DNA from: Rhodocyclaceae bacterium
GTDB lineage: Bacteria; Pseudomonadota; Gammaproteobacteria; Burkholderiales; Rhodocyclaceae
Direction of reading: 5' to 3'
Assembly: GCA_020445785.1 (NCBI GenBank)
Contig: JAGRFZ010000017.1
Location: forward strand, 1-51,616
Length of the DNA stretch: 51,616 bases
The notes under the pieces are model-generated. The model was not told the origin of the DNA, searched no databases, and saw nothing but the letters and a program-made list of their open reading frames with translations. Below, one piece after another: positions 42,330 through 49,405 of the stretch (position 1 is its first letter; each line of letters begins with the position of its first letter). The position numbers and the translations under genes are program-made.

Positions 42330-42481
42330 GTCCCGTTTCCACCGCCGTCACCAGTTGGCAGCTTATCCGAATCGGCCGCAGTGCCGGCAGGTCGACCGCG
42401 GGGTACCATGCGAGGCAGATGGTCATCGATGGAGTGCGCCATGAGCGGGACGAGGGGCAAGGCCGGCGGCGGGTTCCCGAC

Positions 42482-43393
42482 GTGATCGCCCGCCGCTACC
42501 TCTATCTCATCGCCCTCGCCCGAGAACGACATTTCGGTCGGGCGGCCGCCGCATGCCATGTTTCGACCTCGACCCTGTCGGCGGCGATCCGCGACATCGA
42601 GTCGGAACTGGGCGTCACCGTGGTCGAGCGCGGCCAGCAGTTCGGCGGACTGACCGCCGAGGGCCGCTGTGTGCTCGAATGTGCCCAGCGCCTGGCCGAT
42701 GGCGCCGCCGGGTTGCGCCAACAACTGGCCACCTTGCGGGACCACCTCGAGGGGCGCCTGATCATCGGCGTGATTCCGACCGCCCTGACCGCCGTGAGCG
42801 CCCTCAGCGCCGCCTTTGCCGCCCGCCATCCGCTGGTTGCGGTCGAGGTGCGCTCCCTGCCGACAGACGAGATCCGGAATCGGCTGGCACGCTTCGAGAT
42901 CGACGCCGGCGTACTCTACCTGCCCGACCACAGCGACCTGGCACTGGACTGCCAACCCCTGTGGATCGAGGATCATGTGCTGCTGACGCCGAATTGCGGT
43001 CCGCTCGCGGAGCGCGACGAGATCCGCTGGGGGGAAGCGGCCGAGTTGCCGCTGTGCCTGCTGACGCCCGACATGCTGAACCGGCGAACCATCGACGAAA
43101 CCTTCGCCTCGGTCGGGGCCAGCGCCACTCCGACGCTGGAGACCGATTCGATCGTCAGCCTGCTCGCCCACGTATGCACCGGCGCGTGGAGCACGATCAT
43201 TCCGCGCAGCGTGCTCGAACAGATCGGCACGCCAGGCGACACCCGGGTGCTGCGGCTGGTCGCCCCCAAGCTGGCCTGGACCACCGGGCTCGCGACGCTG
43301 CGCCAGAATCCCCCGAAGCCGGCGGTGGCTGCCCTCCACGCCGTCGCCGCGTCCCTATCCCGCGAGCGCGGCGAACACGGTCGCCGGTCATGA
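42482..43393 (+). CDS. LysR-type transcriptional regulator (CynR/OxyR-like)
   Basis: A DNA-binding regulator of about 303 residues. GTG 42482 is chosen because it places the helix-turn-helix (YLYLIALARERHFGRAAAACHVSTSTLSAAIRDIESELG) at the very N-terminus as in the family; an ATG at 42419 would add 21 atypical residues and its GAGG is too close. The effector domain follows (GRLIIGVIPTALTAVSALSAAF, IDAGVLYLPDHSDLAL, TDSIVSLLAHVCTGAWSTIIP). Its stop overlaps the start of the DUF2254 gene by ATGA, so the two are made together. Confidence 0.9.
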   Translation: MIARRYLYLIALARERHFGRAAAACHVSTSTLSAAIRDIESELGVTVVERGQQFGGLTAEGRCVLECAQRLADGAAGLRQQLATLRDHLEGRLIIGVIPTALTAVSALSAAFAARHPLVAVEVRSLPTDEIRNRLARFEIDAGVLYLPDHSDLALDCQPLWIEDHVLLTPNCGPLAERDEIRWGEAAELPLCLLTPDMLNRRTIDETFASVGASATPTLETDSIVSLLAHVCTGAWSTIIPRSVLEQIGTPGDTRVLRLVAPKLAWTTGLATLRQNPPKPAVAALHAVAASLSRERGEHGRRS

Positions 43394-44742
43394 TGATCCG
43401 TCTGCAATACCTCTGGGAGCGGATGCGCACCAGCTACTGGCTGCTGCCCTCGTGGATGCTGCTGTCGGCGGCCTTGCTGGCGTGGCTGGCGCTCTATGTG
43501 GACAGCCGAATTGGACTGGAAGTGCTGGACGGCGTCGCCTGGGCGCTGGTCGTCAGCAGCGAGGGGGCGACCGCGGTGATGTCCACCATCGCCGGCTCGA
43601 TGGTGACCATCGCGGGCGTGGTGTTCTCGATCACCCTGGTCGCGCTGTCGCTGGCTTCCGGCCAGTTCGGACCGCGCATGCTGCGCAACTTCATTCGTGA
43701 TCGGGTCAACCAGACCGCACTGGGCGCCTTCCTCGCGACCTTTCTTTACTGCCTGCTGGTGTTGAGCGCGATCCGCCACGATCCGCTGCAGCCGTTCGTG
43801 CCGCACATCGCGGTCGGCCTCGGCGTGGTACTCGCGGTGATCAGCGTGGTGACACTGATCATCTACATCCATCACGTGGCGGTGACGATCCAGGCCGATA
43901 CGCTGATCGAGGCCATCTACCGGGATCTCTGCGCGCTGATGGACCGCCTCTACCCGGAGGCGATCGGCGACCACGCCGAGGCACCGCACGCGGCCGCCAG
44001 CGATCAGCCCCACCGCTTCGATCGCGCGCCGACCGAAGTGCTGGCGGACTGCCATGCGTACGTGCAGGCCATCGATCTCGCGGGCTTGGTCGCAGTCGCG
44101 GCCGGCAACGATCTGGTGATCCGGCTGCGACGAAGCCCCGGCCAGTACGTGTTGCACGGCTCCGTGCTGATGTCGGTATGGGCGGAGCAAGAGATCGAAG
44201 AGGAATTGCGCGAGCGGCTGCGGCGGCTGGTGGTCTTCGGCGCCCAGCGAACCGCCACCCAGGACGTCGAATTCGCGCTCGACCAGCTCGTCGAGATCGC
44301 CTCACGGGCACTCTCGCCCGGCATCAACGATCCATTTACGGCAATTACCTGCATTGACCGCCTCGCGTCGGCGCTCTCGCTGCTCGCGAGCCGACGGGTA
44401 CCGCCCGCCTGGCACACCGACACCGACGGCGTCGCCCGGGTATACGACTCGCCGGTGAGCTTCGACAAGGCGATCGACGCGGCCTTCGACCCGATTCGTC
44501 AATACGCGCGAGGCAACGCGCCGGTGACCATCCGCATGATGGAAGTCCTCGCCGAGCTGGTCCCGCTGTGCCGACGCCAGCGCGACAAGCAGGCCCTGTC
44601 GCGGCATGCCGACATGTTGCTGCGAAGCGCCGTCGCAGCCCTGCCGGAGCCTCACGATGTCGCCGACGTCCGGTCCCGCCACCGCCACGTCGCCGAACTT
44701 CTACATGGCCCGCCGCTGGCCACCACCGGCAGCGGCGACTAG
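43390..44742 (+). CDS. DUF2254 membrane protein
   Basis: A 450-residue inner-membrane protein. Four helices lie in the first 165 residues (WMLLSAALLAWLALYV; STIAGSMVTIAGVVFSITLVALSL; TALGAFLATFLYCLLVL; VGLGVVLAVISVVTLIIYI), then a large cytosolic part with FGAQRTATQDVEFALDQLVEIASRALSPGINDPFTAITCIDRL, the family hallmark. The function of DUF2254 proteins is not established. The LysR gene is in front and overlaps, suggesting inducer-dependent expression. Confidence 0.9.
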   Translation: MMIRLQYLWERMRTSYWLLPSWMLLSAALLAWLALYVDSRIGLEVLDGVAWALVVSSEGATAVMSTIAGSMVTIAGVVFSITLVALSLASGQFGPRMLRNFIRDRVNQTALGAFLATFLYCLLVLSAIRHDPLQPFVPHIAVGLGVVLAVISVVTLIIYIHHVAVTIQADTLIEAIYRDLCALMDRLYPEAIGDHAEAPHAAASDQPHRFDRAPTEVLADCHAYVQAIDLAGLVAVAAGNDLVIRLRRSPGQYVLHGSVLMSVWAEQEIEEELRERLRRLVVFGAQRTATQDVEFALDQLVEIASRALSPGINDPFTAITCIDRLASALSLLASRRVPPAWHTDTDGVARVYDSPVSFDKAIDAAFDPIRQYARGNAPVTIRMMEVLAELVPLCRRQRDKQALSRHADMLLRSAVAALPEPHDVADVRSRHRHVAELLHGPPLATTGSGD

Positions 44743-44796: not shown

Positions 44797-45348
44797 ATGG
44801 CGGCATGGGCACACTTGTGTCGGTTTTGCGGAGACGAAAGGCCCGCGACCGCGTACGTATCGGCCGCCACCGTGGCGGAGATGCCTGCCGCCTGCCGCGT
44901 CGTTCAGGTGCGCATCGACGGGCGATGGCGCTGCGCGCTGGTGGACCGGGACCACCGCTACGCGGTCGATCGAATGCTGCTGCACGACGTCTGCATCGGC
45001 GATCTCGGCGACTGCCCGGAGTGCGCCGCGCTGCTGGCAGGAAACAGCGCCGACCGCCAAGCGGAAGACGCCGGCACGGCGGCCGGCAGCAGCGTCCATG
45101 CGGCGGCGGTCGAGCTCGATGGCCGGCGGATCGTGGTCGTCCTGGTGGCCGAGGCGCTGATCGACAGCCCCGCGGAGGCGGACATGGCCATCGACCGGCT
45201 TTCACCCCATTTCAGCGGTGCCGGCGTGGTCTTGCTGGCCCAGCGCGAGGATGGCAGTCCGTGCTACCACGGCGACGACGAGTCCTGTGGCCGAGTCCGT
45301 CGATTGCCGCTCGAGCGACTACCCTGGAAGGTCTATCCGCTGACCTGA
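44797..45348 (+). CDS. Protein of unknown function with zinc-ribbon-like N-terminus
   Basis: A 183-residue cytosolic protein. An N-terminal CRFCGD and a CPECAAL near residue 73 form two CxxC pairs that could hold one zinc. The second half is a plain alpha/beta segment (VELDGRRIVVVLVAEALIDSP, GAGVVLLAQREDGSPCYHG). A GAGG lies 7 bases before the ATG. I do not recognise the family. It follows the DUF2254 gene by 54 bases and may belong to that operon. Confidence 0.72.
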   Translation: MAAWAHLCRFCGDERPATAYVSAATVAEMPAACRVVQVRIDGRWRCALVDRDHRYAVDRMLLHDVCIGDLGDCPECAALLAGNSADRQAEDAGTAAGSSVHAAAVELDGRRIVVVLVAEALIDSPAEADMAIDRLSPHFSGAGVVLLAQREDGSPCYHGDDESCGRVRRLPLERLPWKVYPLT

Positions 45349-45499: not shown

Positions 45500-46237
45500 T
45501 TGAGCAAGCAGCTACGGCTATTCCTGAAATCCCTGCTCGAAAGCGTCCGCGATCTCGCGCCGATCGCCATCGTCATCACTTTCTTTCAACTGGTCGTCCT
45601 GCAGCAGCCGATTCCCGATCTGGCCGACTTGCTGGTCGGCTCGGTACTGGTCGTGCTCGGACTCACGTTCTTCATCCGGGGACTCGAGATGGGGCTGTTC
45701 CCGATCGGCGAGCGCATGGCCTACGAATTTGCCCGCAAGGGTTCCCTCGCCTGGTTGCTGGCCTTTGCCTTCGCCCTCGGTTTCGGCACCACGGTCGCCG
45801 AGCCCGCGCTGATCGCAGTCGCCGACGAAGCGGCGCAAATCGCCGCCGAGGGCGGCGTCATCGACAATCGGCGCGAGGCCCGCGACGACTACGCGCTCGG
45901 ACTGCGCTACACGGTCGCGGTGTCGGTCGGATTCGCGATCATGCTCGGTGTGCTGCGGATCATCCGCGGCTGGCCGATCCAATGGCTGATCATCGGTGGC
46001 TACGCCGGCGTCGTCGTCATGACCGCCTTCGCGCCGGAGGAAATCGTCGGAATCGCCTATGATTCCGGCGGCGTCACGACTTCGACGATCACGGTGCCGC
46101 TGGTCACTGCCCTCGGCGTCGGTCTCGCGTCGTCGATCAAGGGGCGCAATCCGATGATCGACGGCTTCGGCCTGATCGCGTTCGCCTCGCTGACACCGAT
46201 GATTTTCGTCATGGCCTACGGGATGCTGTTCCAATGA
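45500..46237 (+). CDS. DUF1538 membrane protein A
   Basis: A 245-residue polytopic inner-membrane protein, TTG start (no ATG fits; the ribosome site is weak). Two similar halves are visible, each with a Gly/Thr/Ser-rich loop that looks like a re-entrant hairpin: [17 protein letters not shown] in the first and [20 protein letters not shown] in the second. It ends with [15 protein letters not shown]. Such paired motifs are typical of transporters with inverted repeats, but no substrate is known for the family. The next gene is a paralogue, overlapping by ATGA; together they likely form a heteromer regulated by the PII-like and CBS proteins that follow. Confidence 0.9.
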
Positions 46238-47040
46238 TTGCGGGGCTCGGCCATTTTGCGGCGACCGTCGGGCAGACGGTATTCGACGTGCTGCCGATCG
46301 CGGCCATCATCTTCGGTTTCCAGTTCGTCGTGATCCGCAAGCCGATTCCTCAGTTCAAGCAGGTTCTGACCGGTTTTGCGTACGTGCTGCTCGGCCTCGC
46401 GTTGTTTCTCGAGGGACTCGACCAAGCCTTGTTCCCCCTCGGCAAGCTGATGGCCCGGCAATTGACCGACCCGGCCTTCATCTACGGCGCACTGGAGGGC
46501 GTTCGGCCGGCGGTGCATTGGGCCGACTATCTGTGGGTATATCTGTTCGCCGCAGCCATCGGCTTTTCGACGACGATCGCGGAGCCCTCGCTGATCGCCG
46601 TTGCGATCAAGGGGGCCGCCGTATCCGGCGGCGCGATCAGCGTCTGGGGACTGCGCATCGCGGTGGCCAACGGCGTGGCCATCGGCATCGCACTCGGCAC
46701 GTTTCGCATCGTCACCGGCACTCCGTTGCATTACTACATCATTGCCGGATACATCGTCGTGATCCTGCAGACCCTGGTCGCCCCCAAAATGATCATCGCC
46801 CTCGCCTACGATTCCGGCGGCGTCACCACTTCGACGGTGACGGTGCCGCTGGTCACCGCCCTCGGGCTCGGGCTCGCGGGCACCGTGCCCGGTCGCAGCG
46901 TGCTGCTCGACGGCTTCGGACTGATTGCGTTCGCCAGCCTGTTTCCAATGATGACGGTGATGAGCTATGCCCAGGTCGCCGAATGGCGAACCCGCGATCG
47001 CAAGCCCAACTTGGCGAAATCCGCCGAAAGAGGTGAATGA
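46234..47040 (+). CDS. DUF1538 membrane protein B (paralogue)
   Basis: A 268-residue polytopic membrane protein, the second subunit of the pair. It carries the same two signature loops: [17 protein letters not shown] and [20 protein letters not shown], and [15 protein letters not shown] near the end. It is about 20 residues longer than its neighbour because of an insertion ([18 protein letters not shown]) after the first conserved block. The start overlaps the previous stop by ATGA (46234-46237) and its own stop overlaps the PII-like gene, so three genes are translationally coupled. Confidence 0.9.
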
Positions 47041-47393
47041 CCATGCATTTCAAACTATTGATCGCCCTCGTCGAGGACGACAAGACGAACGCGGTGTTGC
47101 AAGCCGCGCGCGAGGCCGGTGCCACCGGCGCCACGGTGATCAACCAGGCTCGCGGCGAGGGGCTGCAGAAGGCCAAGACCTTCTTCGGCCTGGCGCTCGA
47201 GACCCAGCGCGACATGCTGCTGCTTCTGGTCGAAAAGCATCTGGCCCGCAACATCCTGGAGACGATCGCCGAGAAGGGCGAGTTCGACAGCAAGCCCGGC
47301 ACCGGCATCGCGTTCCAGATCGATGTCGAGGACGCGGTCGGCGTGAGCCGCCAGATGCAGGAATTGCTCGGCGTGGTCGGGGAGGAGCTATGA
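47037..47393 (+). CDS. PII-like signalling protein
   Basis: A 118-residue cytosolic protein of the PII (GlnB-like) fold. It starts MHFKLLIALVEDDKTNAVLQAAREAGATGATVINQARGEG, with a beta-alpha-beta order like PII, then LLLLVEKHLARNILETIAEKGEFDSKPGTGIAFQIDVEDAVGV. The uridylylated Tyr of the GlnB T-loop is missing and the B-loop TGKxGDGK is not kept, so it is not a nitrogen regulator; it probably binds a nucleotide and touches the membrane proteins. ATG 47037 overlaps the previous stop; ATG 47043 has better spacing to AGAGG and is an alternative. Its stop overlaps the CBS gene. Confidence 0.9.
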   Translation: MTMHFKLLIALVEDDKTNAVLQAAREAGATGATVINQARGEGLQKAKTFFGLALETQRDMLLLLVEKHLARNILETIAEKGEFDSKPGTGIAFQIDVEDAVGVSRQMQELLGVVGEEL

Positions 47394-47791
47394 GTAGCGA
47401 CGTGGTACGCGTTCATCATGTCATGAAGCGCGAGTTCGACACCATCGACGGCATGGCGACGATCGCCGAAGCGCTGCGTACGATGAAGCATGTCGAAACC
47501 AAGAGCCTGATCGTGGACAAGCGAGACGCGGACGACGAGTACGGCATTTTATTGATTTCCGATATCGCCCGCTTCGTGCTCGGCCAGGACCGTTCGCCGG
47601 AGCGCGTCAACGTGTACGAAGTGATGGCGAAACCGGTGATCAGCGTCGATCCCGAGATGGACATCCGCTATTGCGCCCGGCTATTCACGCGCTTTTCGCT
47701 GTCGCGTGCGCCGGTGATCGAGAGCGGCAAGGTGGTCGGCATCGTCAGCATGGCCGACCTGGTGCTGAAGGGTCTGTATCGCGACCTTTGA
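47390..47791 (+). CDS. Two-CBS-domain protein
   Basis: A 133-residue cytosolic protein made only of a CBS pair: VHHVMKREFDTIDGMATIAEALRTMKHVETKSLIVDKR with a GILLISDIARFVL, then YEVMAKPVISVDPEMDIRYCARLFTRFSLSRAPVIESGKVVGIVSMADLV. CBS pairs bind adenosine nucleotides (AMP, ATP, SAM) and gate channels or transporters. GGAGGAG lies just before the ATG and the start overlaps the PII-like stop. It ends the operon. Confidence 0.94.
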   Translation: MSSDVVRVHHVMKREFDTIDGMATIAEALRTMKHVETKSLIVDKRDADDEYGILLISDIARFVLGQDRSPERVNVYEVMAKPVISVDPEMDIRYCARLFTRFSLSRAPVIESGKVVGIVSMADLVLKGLYRDL

Positions 47792-47869: not shown

Positions 47870-49405
47870 TCAGGCTGCCACGCCGCTGTCCTGGCCGGCG
47901 CATTGCACGCGATTGCGTCCCGCGCGCTTGGCTTCGTACAAGGCGGCATCGGCAAGCGCGATCAACTGATTCTCGTCCGCGACGTCCGCTCGCAATTCGG
48001 CGACACCGAAACTCGACGTGATGCGCAAGCCCGGATGCGAACGAATACCGGACGCGGCGTCGCGCTCGATGCTGGCGCGCAAGCGCTCGGCGACCTCCGC
48101 GGCACGGGCCGCCGACAGGCCGGGCAAGATGATGCAGAACTCCTCGCCACCGTAGCGACAGACCAGGTCTTCGTCGGTACGGACTCCTCGCCCGAGCGCC
48201 GCTGCCACGGCCTGCAACACCTGATCGCCGATGGCATGCCCGTAGTCGTCGTTGAAGCGCTTGAAGAAGTCGACGTCGCTCATGATGCAGGAGAGATGCG
48301 CGCCATCGCGCGCCGCCGCCTCGACCAGTTCGGATACGCGCTCGAAGAATGCGCGGCGGTTGAGGCAGCCGGTGAGCGGATCACGGGTGGCGAGGCGCAC
48401 CAGCTCCTCGTTCTGAACACGGATCAGTTCGTTCGATTGATCCAGCTCGTGCACCGTGTCGAGGAGCTGGGAATTGATCATATGCAGAGCGGTGACGTCG
48501 GCCATCGACACGATGCAGCCCCGAACCCGGTTGCCACCGTCGAGAATCGGGGCGGCGCTGAGCAGAATCCGGGTGAGCTGGCCGGCCTCGCCCGCCAACA
48601 GTTCGACAGGCTGTTCGCGCACCGGCTCGTGGGTACGGGCGACCTCCCGCCACGGATAGGCCTCGCCGTCGTCACCCATGCCGCTCATCAGCCATTTCAG
48701 TGCTGCCACCGGCTTGCCCGTCGGATCGACGCTCGCCTGCGGATGGATCTTGGCGAAGGCCCGGTTGACGAGCAGTACCCGATCCTCGTTGTCGAGCACC
48801 ATCACCGCCTCGCCGAGCGTGTCGAATGCGGCTCGCACCCGCTGTGGAATCACCGAGCCCGGGTCGAGGTACTGCAAGGCACGGCGCAGGTAGAGGTATG
48901 CGAGCAGCGAGCCGCCACAGGCAAAGGCGACGATGCCCTTGACCAGAGGGTCGTCCAGCCAACCGACGACACTCTCGGGAAAGGCCGGCCGAAAGCTCAG
49001 TTCGACGTTGCCCCACTCGTGCTGGCCCGCCAACAAGGGAACCCGGACATTGCGCAAATTCGACGGTGCATCGGCGGACAGATGCCAATGACGGGCGTGG
49101 TCGCCGGCCCGCGATACGATCAGGCCGTCATCGCGCCGGACGGCAACGGAATCGAGCTCGTCGCTGCGACGCAAGACCTTGTCGAGGGTCGAGCTGATGA
49201 GGGTCTGCTGATCGCTGTGCAGCAGGGCCGTAATCTGGACAGCGAGCGTTTCAGCGATGTGTTGACGCAACTCGACCGCCGATTTCTGGCGGTCGGGAAT
49301 CACGCCGATCGCCATGTCGACCAGCAGCATCAGCGACAACAGCAAGCTGACCACCCCCAGGGCGAGGCGCAGCGCCGGAGAAAACAGCGGGCGGCCGGAC
49401 ATCAT
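47870..49405 (-). CDS. Membrane PAS-GGDEF diguanylate cyclase
   Basis: A 511-residue membrane protein that makes cyclic di-GMP. Helix 1 is LALGVVSLLLSLMLLVDMAIGVI (about 14-36); a periplasmic region of about 115 residues follows; helix 2 is GIVAFACGGSLLAYLYL (about 155-172); then PAS (AAFDTLGEAVMVLDNEDRVLLVNRAFAKIHP) and GGDEF beginning DPLTGCLNRRAFFERV, with MSDVDFFKRFNDDYGHAIGDQ and active loop GGEEF. The RxxD inhibitory site is degenerate (TDED). The start overlaps the stop of the giant repeat protein (ATGA at 49402-49405), so the enzyme is made together with it. It is convergent with the CBS gene. Confidence 0.93.
   Translation of the reverse strand: MMSGRPLFSPALRLALGVVSLLLSLMLLVDMAIGVIPDRQKSAVELRQHIAETLAVQITALLHSDQQTLISSTLDKVLRRSDELDSVAVRRDDGLIVSRAGDHARHWHLSADAPSNLRNVRVPLLAGQHEWGNVELSFRPAFPESVVGWLDDPLVKGIVAFACGGSLLAYLYLRRALQYLDPGSVIPQRVRAAFDTLGEAVMVLDNEDRVLLVNRAFAKIHPQASVDPTGKPVAALKWLMSGMGDDGEAYPWREVARTHEPVREQPVELLAGEAGQLTRILLSAAPILDGGNRVRGCIVSMADVTALHMINSQLLDTVHELDQSNELIRVQNEELVRLATRDPLTGCLNRRAFFERVSELVEAAARDGAHLSCIMSDVDFFKRFNDDYGHAIGDQVLQAVAAALGRGVRTDEDLVCRYGGEEFCIILPGLSAARAAEVAERLRASIERDAASGIRSHPGLRITSSFGVAELRADVADENQLIALADAALYEAKRAGRNRVQCAGQDSGVAA

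Follow-up and report, generated by a model that had tools for sequence, protein, structure and literature searches.

Four genes on the forward strand of contig JAGRFZ010000017.1 (assembly GCA_020445785.1, Rhodocyclaceae bacterium) encode a putative UmpAB-type antiporter of the DUF1538 family together with two small candidate control proteins, one PII-like and one with a pair of CBS motifs. Coordinates refer to the window, that is, the whole stretch of 51,616 nucleotides that was analysed. The operon contains the following genes and overlaps:

45500..46237, + strand: umpA-like DUF1538 membrane subunit A, 245 amino acids, TTG start (Pfam, NCBIfam, topology)
46234..46237, + strand: ATGA overlap of the genes for subunits A and B (open reading frame coordinates)
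46234..47040, + strand: umpB-like DUF1538 membrane subunit B, 268 amino acids, basic C-terminal tail (Pfam, NCBIfam, topology)
47037..47040, + strand: ATGA overlap of the subunit B and PII-like genes (open reading frame coordinates)
47037..47393, + strand: dedicated PII-like protein, 118 amino acids, short T-loop of the TFFG type (Pfam, model, family alignments)
47390..47393, + strand: ATGA overlap of the PII-like and CBS genes (open reading frame coordinates)
47390..47791, + strand: stand-alone CBS-pair (Bateman) protein, 133 amino acids (Pfam CBS in two stretches; kinship to 5nmu)

The coordinates bear out the chain of four genes joined by ATGA that an initial annotation of this DNA had described. 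Both membrane subunits clear the gathering cut-off of Pfam DUF1538 (PF07556; 22.6 bits), subunit A with 242.6 bits and subunit B with 215.6 bits, and 117 of 256 aligned positions (46%) are identical between them, so that they are indeed paralogues. The PII-like protein scores 52.7 bits against Pfam P-II (cut-off 25), and the CBS protein 67.8 bits against Pfam CBS in two stretches (cut-off 24), in agreement with its description as a two-CBS protein. For this last gene the list of open reading frames (ORFs) begins at 46967, an in-frame start ahead of the one in the ATGA at 47390.

The subunits can be told apart by family. Subunit A scores 390.3 bits with the NCBIfam model UmpA versus 194.6 with UmpB, and subunit B scores 345.9 bits with UmpB versus 196.4 with UmpA. 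The initial annotation knew of no substrate for DUF1538. That point needs correction: PMC5484666 reports UmpAB of Halomonas zhaodongensis as a two-subunit DUF1538 Na+(Li+,K+)/H+ antiporter that forms a heterodimer and has its optimum at pH 9.0. It restores growth of the antiporter-deficient Escherichia coli strain KNabc at 0.4 M NaCl, provides salt and alkali tolerance, and in vesicles exchanges Na+, Li+ and K+ for H+ (PMC5484666). The window pair shares with it two overlapping paralogous DUF1538 genes, A ahead of B, the best matches to UmpA and UmpB, and seven transmembrane segments predicted for each subunit. By analogy, Na+(Li+,K+)/H+ exchange by the window pair is putative. One difference is that the terms PII, P-II and CBS have no match in that paper, in which the cloned fragment measured 4.2 kb (PMC5484666). 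Two papers on cable bacteria with UmpAB homologues likewise gave no match to the terms P-II or CBS, and a literature search of open-licence PMC papers found no link of DUF1538 or UmpAB to PII or CBS.

A promoter scan found no sigma-70-like site at the operon, and the count from a terminator scan was no different from that in shuffles. Upstream, at 42419-44742, genes for a LysR regulator and a DUF2254 membrane protein (43390-44742) overlap by ATGA. The interval between the DUF2254 gene and the operon holds an ORF of 183 amino acids (44797-45348), for which neither Pfam nor NCBIfam gave a match at E<=1. Downstream, a gene for a PAS-GGDEF protein (47870-49405, - strand) is convergent with the CBS gene.

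Gene linkage across genomes

The named loci are the best 80 of at least 588 confirmed ones; they are hence close relatives of the window's operon, mostly Gammaproteobacteria by title. Of the 77 that can be judged, 76 have a PII-like gene as the immediate downstream neighbour of DUF1538, and the one exception is L096; in the other three (L049, L052 and L089) no more than 20 bases separate the last DUF1538 ORF from the contig end. The CBS gene comes next after the PII-like gene in 74 of these 76 loci, and the remaining two are cut ahead of its position.

The linkage was also examined in 398 genomes of the window's phylum, from 213 genera, with a threshold of E<=1e-8 for the PII-like profile. DUF1538 occurs in 126 of these genomes and 43 genera (in a sample to which family f39 contributes heavily), and the PII-like profile matches in 128 genomes and 45 genera. 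A comparison of the two lists by hand shows that, by genome, 120 carry both, 6 only DUF1538, 8 only the PII-like protein and 264 neither (Fisher p 2e-83); by genus, the counts are 42, 1, 3 and 167 (Fisher p 1e-39), related genomes not being independent in either test. Among the six genomes with DUF1538 only, two have the start of a PII gene next door, cut by a contig end in one and by a run of N in the other, three have fragmentary or single DUF1538 matches, and the sixth, G245, carries an intact pair with no PII next to it. Of the eight with the PII-like protein only, five carry relatives of it without DUF1538, and three are weak matches.

At 40 loci opened from 37 of the 43 DUF1538 genera, the PII gene is downstream in 38. 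The two misses (L157 and L161) belong to family f59, in which the PII-like gene is on another contig; there it is followed by CBS in all three f59 genomes with a PII match. With genera g95, g102, g154, g150 and g170 added to this set, the tally of all 43 genera, the window included, is 39 with PII adjacent, three with it on another contig and one in which it was not found. Another 30 loci (L186-L215) were left uncounted, as their genomes repeat those of the sample.

The same arrangement recurs where the membrane protein is built differently. A second clade of fused DUF1538 proteins (~590 amino acids) has an adjoining PII-like gene at 21 of 21 loci, of which five (L127-L131) were fetched through the PII match and are thus biased, and the other 16 through DUF1538. 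In three of these loci (L220, L222 and L232) two PII genes follow the fused gene, the second being very divergent (14-21 bits). DUF1538 is present in 5 of 100 genomes of the phylum to which L090, a record titled Nitrospirae, belongs (its own genome included), and the four other loci all carry A, B, PII and CBS in order. For Bacillota, three of four matches from a plasmid collection were opened, the fourth being a second record of one species. In all three (L172, L173 and L174) the gene for a fused two-domain DUF1538 protein precedes one whose product has two PII domains, and CBS is absent; in this layout two transporter halves are matched by two sensor domains. Further variants were seen: three consecutive DUF1538 genes followed by PII and CBS (L217, 2272-5264), and two DUF1538-PII sets back to back, in the order fused protein, PII, CBS, PII and separate pair (L136, 996-5187). 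No natural fusion of DUF1538 with PII was noticed among the ORFs of the fetched loci.

The linkage therefore holds for three DUF1538 architectures, namely the separate pair, the fused form of ~510 amino acids and the second-clade fused form of ~590. Since it spans architectures and phyla while CBS is patchy, DUF1538-PII is, judged by gene order, the old core, and CBS is an optional lineage addition. The initial annotation had tied its proposal to PII-like and CBS genes not being rare at DUF1538 loci; the former proved near-constant and the latter optional. These counts uphold its idea of one dedicated unit that combines a two-subunit membrane system with a PII-like protein; the CBS protein belongs to the unit in many lineages. 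That exchanger and PII-like genes nearly always adjoin across distant bacteria points to the sensor as an on-off switch of the exchanger.

Topology of the membrane pair

A search for solved relatives by sequence gave nothing better than chance for UmpA (E 0.87) and no match for the DUF1538 profile. The structure model of a natural fused homologue, L144 (506 amino acids, 23-row alignment), reached a pLDDT of 85.2 and a pTM of 0.85. In each half of the model, helices break at an A-E-P motif and at a T-T-S-T stretch after DSGG. The two re-entrant-looking loops of the initial annotation thus coincide with modelled helix breaks, at AEP and (G)GVTTST. Foldseek returned no PDB match and no viral-model match at E<=0.001, although it may overlook distant membrane folds, and the TM-score was at most 0.23 among the 50 PDB matches listed. 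Given these low scores, no fold was assigned to DUF1538.

Orientation was judged from loop charges, with seven transmembrane segments drawn by hand from the model and the alignment, in sequences that are related to one another. From the N- to the C-terminus, the mean net charges of the loops are +1.3, -0.4, +0.8, -2.0, +0.8, -0.6, +0.7 and +0.1 in UmpA, and -1.7, +1.5, -2.2, -0.5, -0.4, +0.9, -0.1 and +1.8 in UmpB. The UmpB pattern is the inverse of the UmpA pattern except at the fourth place, which is expected to be positive and is not. All 131 UmpA proteins favour a cytoplasmic N-terminus (N-in). UmpB favours the opposite (N-out) in 121 of 127 proteins by the count of Lys and Arg, with two opposite and four ties, and in 127 of 127 by net charge. 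Fused proteins repeat this within one chain: all 25 have a first half that is N-in, and a second half that is N-out in 24 by Lys and Arg (one tie) and in 23 by net charge (one opposite, one tie). A mixed alignment of fused proteins and separate subunits was dropped, as all rows were apparently placed on the first half.

The consistently opposite sign of the charges argues for antiparallel insertion. Subunit A is predicted to have its N-terminus inside and its C-terminus outside, and subunit B its N-terminus outside and its C-terminus inside, each with seven transmembrane segments. Most likely, antiparallel UmpA and UmpB would together make up one inverted-repeat transporter, each contributing a half, and the basic tail of UmpB would lie in the cytoplasm. 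The conserved acidic residues at the helix breaks ([12 protein letters not shown]) are probable ion or proton sites.

The two candidate sensor proteins

The operon PII-like protein is an extra paralogue, because two canonical PII proteins are also encoded at other places in the host genome, with 116 and 108.6 bits versus 52.3 bits for the operon protein. A profile of the PII-like family separates them clearly, with 177.6 bits for the operon protein versus 19.0 and 14.9 for the canonical ones. Its model (m698fd0bfc53d, 82-row alignment, mean pLDDT 82.5) has the elements E-H-E-E-H-E and a terminal helix, which is the PII order, and the first Foldseek match of the model is GlnK1 (2j9e, E 3.3e-7), with SbtB (6mm2) at E 1.8e-6. 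Together, the Pfam score and the modelled PII fold place the protein in the PII superfamily.

The 82 rows were chosen from 122 dereplicated matches by setting aside fragments, orphans, rows of the second clade and a number of close relatives. Gly28, Gly31, Thr33, Gly40, Phe49, Gly51, Gly102 and Gln106 are invariant in them, and Thr48 (78 rows), Gly42 (79), Gly88 (76) and Gly90 (81) are nearly so. The initial annotation rightly saw that the T-loop Tyr of GlnB is missing: Thr56 stands at the place of Tyr51, in a loop that the alignment makes about five residues shorter than that of the host GlnB/GlnK. It also reported the B-loop as absent; the Lys is indeed lost, but an altered B-loop is present (KPGTGIAF versus GKIGDGKIF), with its two Gly kept. 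Identity with canonical GlnB/GlnK was rejected, since, compared with the host canonical PIIs, the protein has neither Tyr51 of the T-loop nor K90, R101 and R103, the ATP residues of canonical PII. The TFFG segment is a natural candidate for the contact with the membrane pair; the motif of this region is partly kept in orphan PII-like relatives without DUF1538.

The last protein has the two CBS motifs of a Bateman pair. Among solved chains, CBS-CP12 (5nmu) is the closest to it, the pair aligning with that chain over residues 5-128 at E 3.7e-25, and Gly52, Lys81, Pro82, Val109 and Gly117 are invariant in an alignment of 53 rows including the window protein. The CP12 tail is absent here, and the operon partner is a putative antiporter, not a Calvin-cycle regulator. 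CBS-CP12 is described as binding AMP and forming a hexamer (PMC9406205), and by analogy AMP is probably the ligand of the operon protein.

Proposed control and its alternatives

Control of this kind has precedents. The review PMC10710835 describes AmtB, SbtA and ABC importers as targets of PII control, and also reports control of transporters by CBS domains or nucleotides. AmtB-GlnK resembles the operon in the PII fold and in a PII gene linked to a transporter gene (PMC10710835); it differs in that the operon protein has a shorter, altered T-loop without the Tyr and lacks K90, R101 and R103. SbtA-SbtB also joins a Na+-linked transporter to a small PII-like protein, and the fold search with our model turned up SbtB too; there, however, the transporter is a bicarbonate symporter, and here a putative antiporter, the sequence similarity to SbtB is weak (profile match, E 0.042-0.043), and the neighbours are DUF1538 genes, not sbtA. 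SbtA itself belongs to a membrane family other than DUF1538, and AmtB is not known to be related to DUF1538. A PII relative, PII-NG, is encoded with the proton/cation antiporter CzcABC, which is a metal exporter and not DUF1538; no CBS protein is mentioned in the available portion of that account (PMC7726332). PsmrAB is, like UmpAB, a two-component paired Na+/H+ antiporter, with three transmembrane segments in each subunit and unrelated sequence (PMC5484666).

We consider it rather probable that the operon encodes a Na+(K+)/H+ antiporter of inverted topology which the dedicated PII-like protein gates, with the CBS protein as a second input. We infer the binding of the sensors, the gating, the ligands and the direction of control as follows. 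The product would be a monovalent-cation/proton antiporter of the UmpAB kind with its own cytoplasmic controller. The PII-like protein, probably a trimer, would dock at the cytoplasmic face through its conserved R-G-E-G...K-T-F-F-G segment instead of a GlnK T-loop, and perhaps through the UmpB tail too. Following the models of GlnK-AmtB and SbtB-SbtA, it would hold the antiporter in one state according to the adenine nucleotide (AMP, ADP, ATP or cyclic AMP) bound between its subunits. The CBS-pair protein would be a second, lineage-specific input, probably reading AMP. As a net effect, the energy state of the cell would throttle Na+/K+ extrusion and proton entry.

Several observations weigh against this account. 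The window pair scores below the curated NCBIfam equivalog cut-offs of 490 and 500 bits (NF041627 and NF041628), with 390.3 and 345.9 bits, and for this reason we call it UmpAB-type and not an UmpAB equivalog. In E. coli, umpAB alone sufficed for antiport (PMC5484666); PII and CBS are therefore not required for activity. The PII targets described so far are trimers (PMC10710835), and UmpAB is described only as a heterodimer. Where canonical PII has Lys90, Arg101 and Arg103, the residues of the PII-like protein are not basic or are unmatched, which makes ATP binding in the manner of GlnB doubtful; to judge from the residues, an adenosine pocket is plausible, and a GlnB-type triphosphate grip is not. 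Two intact pairs lack the PII-like gene. One is in a metagenome-assembled genome of Thiomargarita (L096), where the 666 bases beyond the pair hold an exonuclease-like ORF and no PII, and a genome search, in a genome whose completeness is not given, found no PII-like match; the other (L244, genome G245) has no such gene adjacent and none found elsewhere in the genome, and its next ORF is, by eye, YchF-type GTPase-like. CBS is present at 27 and missing at 10 of the 37 same-phylum loci judged (one more could not be judged), and it occurs at none of the 21 second-clade and none of the three Bacillota loci. Finally, 15 relatives of the PII-like protein (L112-L126, 96-153 bits) stand without DUF1538, the stretches of L120 and L122 being cut upstream; the PII-like family can therefore serve other targets. 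At some of these loci, argB-, dusB-ntrB-ntrC- and glutamate-cysteine-ligase-like ORFs were noted nearby by eye.

The trimeric state of the known PII targets predicts a trimer of UmpAB heterodimers. On this basis a fuller version of the antiporter model can be put forward tentatively, at less than even confidence: an energy-gated exchanger made of antiparallel paralogues, with a fold not in the PDB and three heterodimers per complex, locked by the TFFG finger of the PII-like trimer, and with the AMP-reading CBS protein as a second brake. Within that version, and just as tentatively, the fused pair and tandem PII domains of Bacillota may be the same machine in fewer chains.

Two alternatives appear unlikely, to a similar degree. 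The signal might flow the other way, UmpAB binding and releasing the PII-like and CBS proteins, which would report the Na+, pH or energy state to cytoplasmic targets. Orphan PII-like relatives beside argB- or dusB-ntrBC-like ORFs would suit this reversal, as would the PII-CBS genes apart from the pair in f59; against it, the sensors are made together with the pair wherever the operon exists, and the host keeps two canonical PIIs besides. Alternatively, the true substrate might be another, such as bicarbonate or another Na+-coupled anion, in analogy to SbtA-SbtB, with the antiport in E. coli as a side activity. Several weak fold matches are Na+-coupled carriers (VcINDY, NaDC1 and EAAT; TM-score at most 0.23 among the 50 listed, none with E below 0.001), MATE and pyrophosphatase chains being equal in rank. 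This idea is opposed by the salt and alkali tolerance and the vesicle Na+(Li+,K+)/H+ exchange reported for UmpAB (PMC5484666), and by the listing of DUF1538 among the Pfam features for optimal growth pH, beside the Mrp and Trk families, in PMC13255231.

A K+/H+ antiporter gated by cyclic di-AMP (c-di-AMP), with the PII-like and/or the CBS protein as receptor, is very improbable. Elsewhere, c-di-AMP is reported to bind the PII-like protein PstA and the CBS pairs of OpuA. However, the domain of c-di-AMP synthases (DAC) has no match in the host genome (~89% complete), and in 30 operon-carrying genomes it was found at E<=0.001 in nine and over the cut-off in seven, in a search whose control was positive in 11 of 14 known genomes. 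c-di-AMP can hence hardly be the general signal, and we rejected it as the general ligand; of the second-messenger gating considered in the initial annotation, this form is unlikely here. AMP, ADP, ATP and cyclic AMP remain the candidate ligands. That the neighbours are just carried along in the transcript, with no functional link to the pair, is hardly credible, because, set against the two intact pairs without PII, the linkage recurs in several phyla, with each of three DUF1538 architectures and with PII in different forms.

To conclude, antiport by a DUF1538 pair and PII control of transporters were already known; our search of open-licence PMC papers found none that joins the two, and the prediction of antiparallel UmpA and UmpB is new here. 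PII control has been described for the uptake of ammonium, nitrate, urea and bicarbonate (PMC10710835). If our proposal is true, ion and pH homeostasis would be coupled directly to the energy state of the cell through a dedicated PII-like partner of a Na+(K+)/H+ antiporter, and a branch of PII proteins that is annotated as nitrogen regulators would gain a partner. The question is broad, given that DUF1538 occurs in 126 of the 398 genomes in the sample of a single phylum, and the antiparallel prediction makes the architecture of the exchanger testable.

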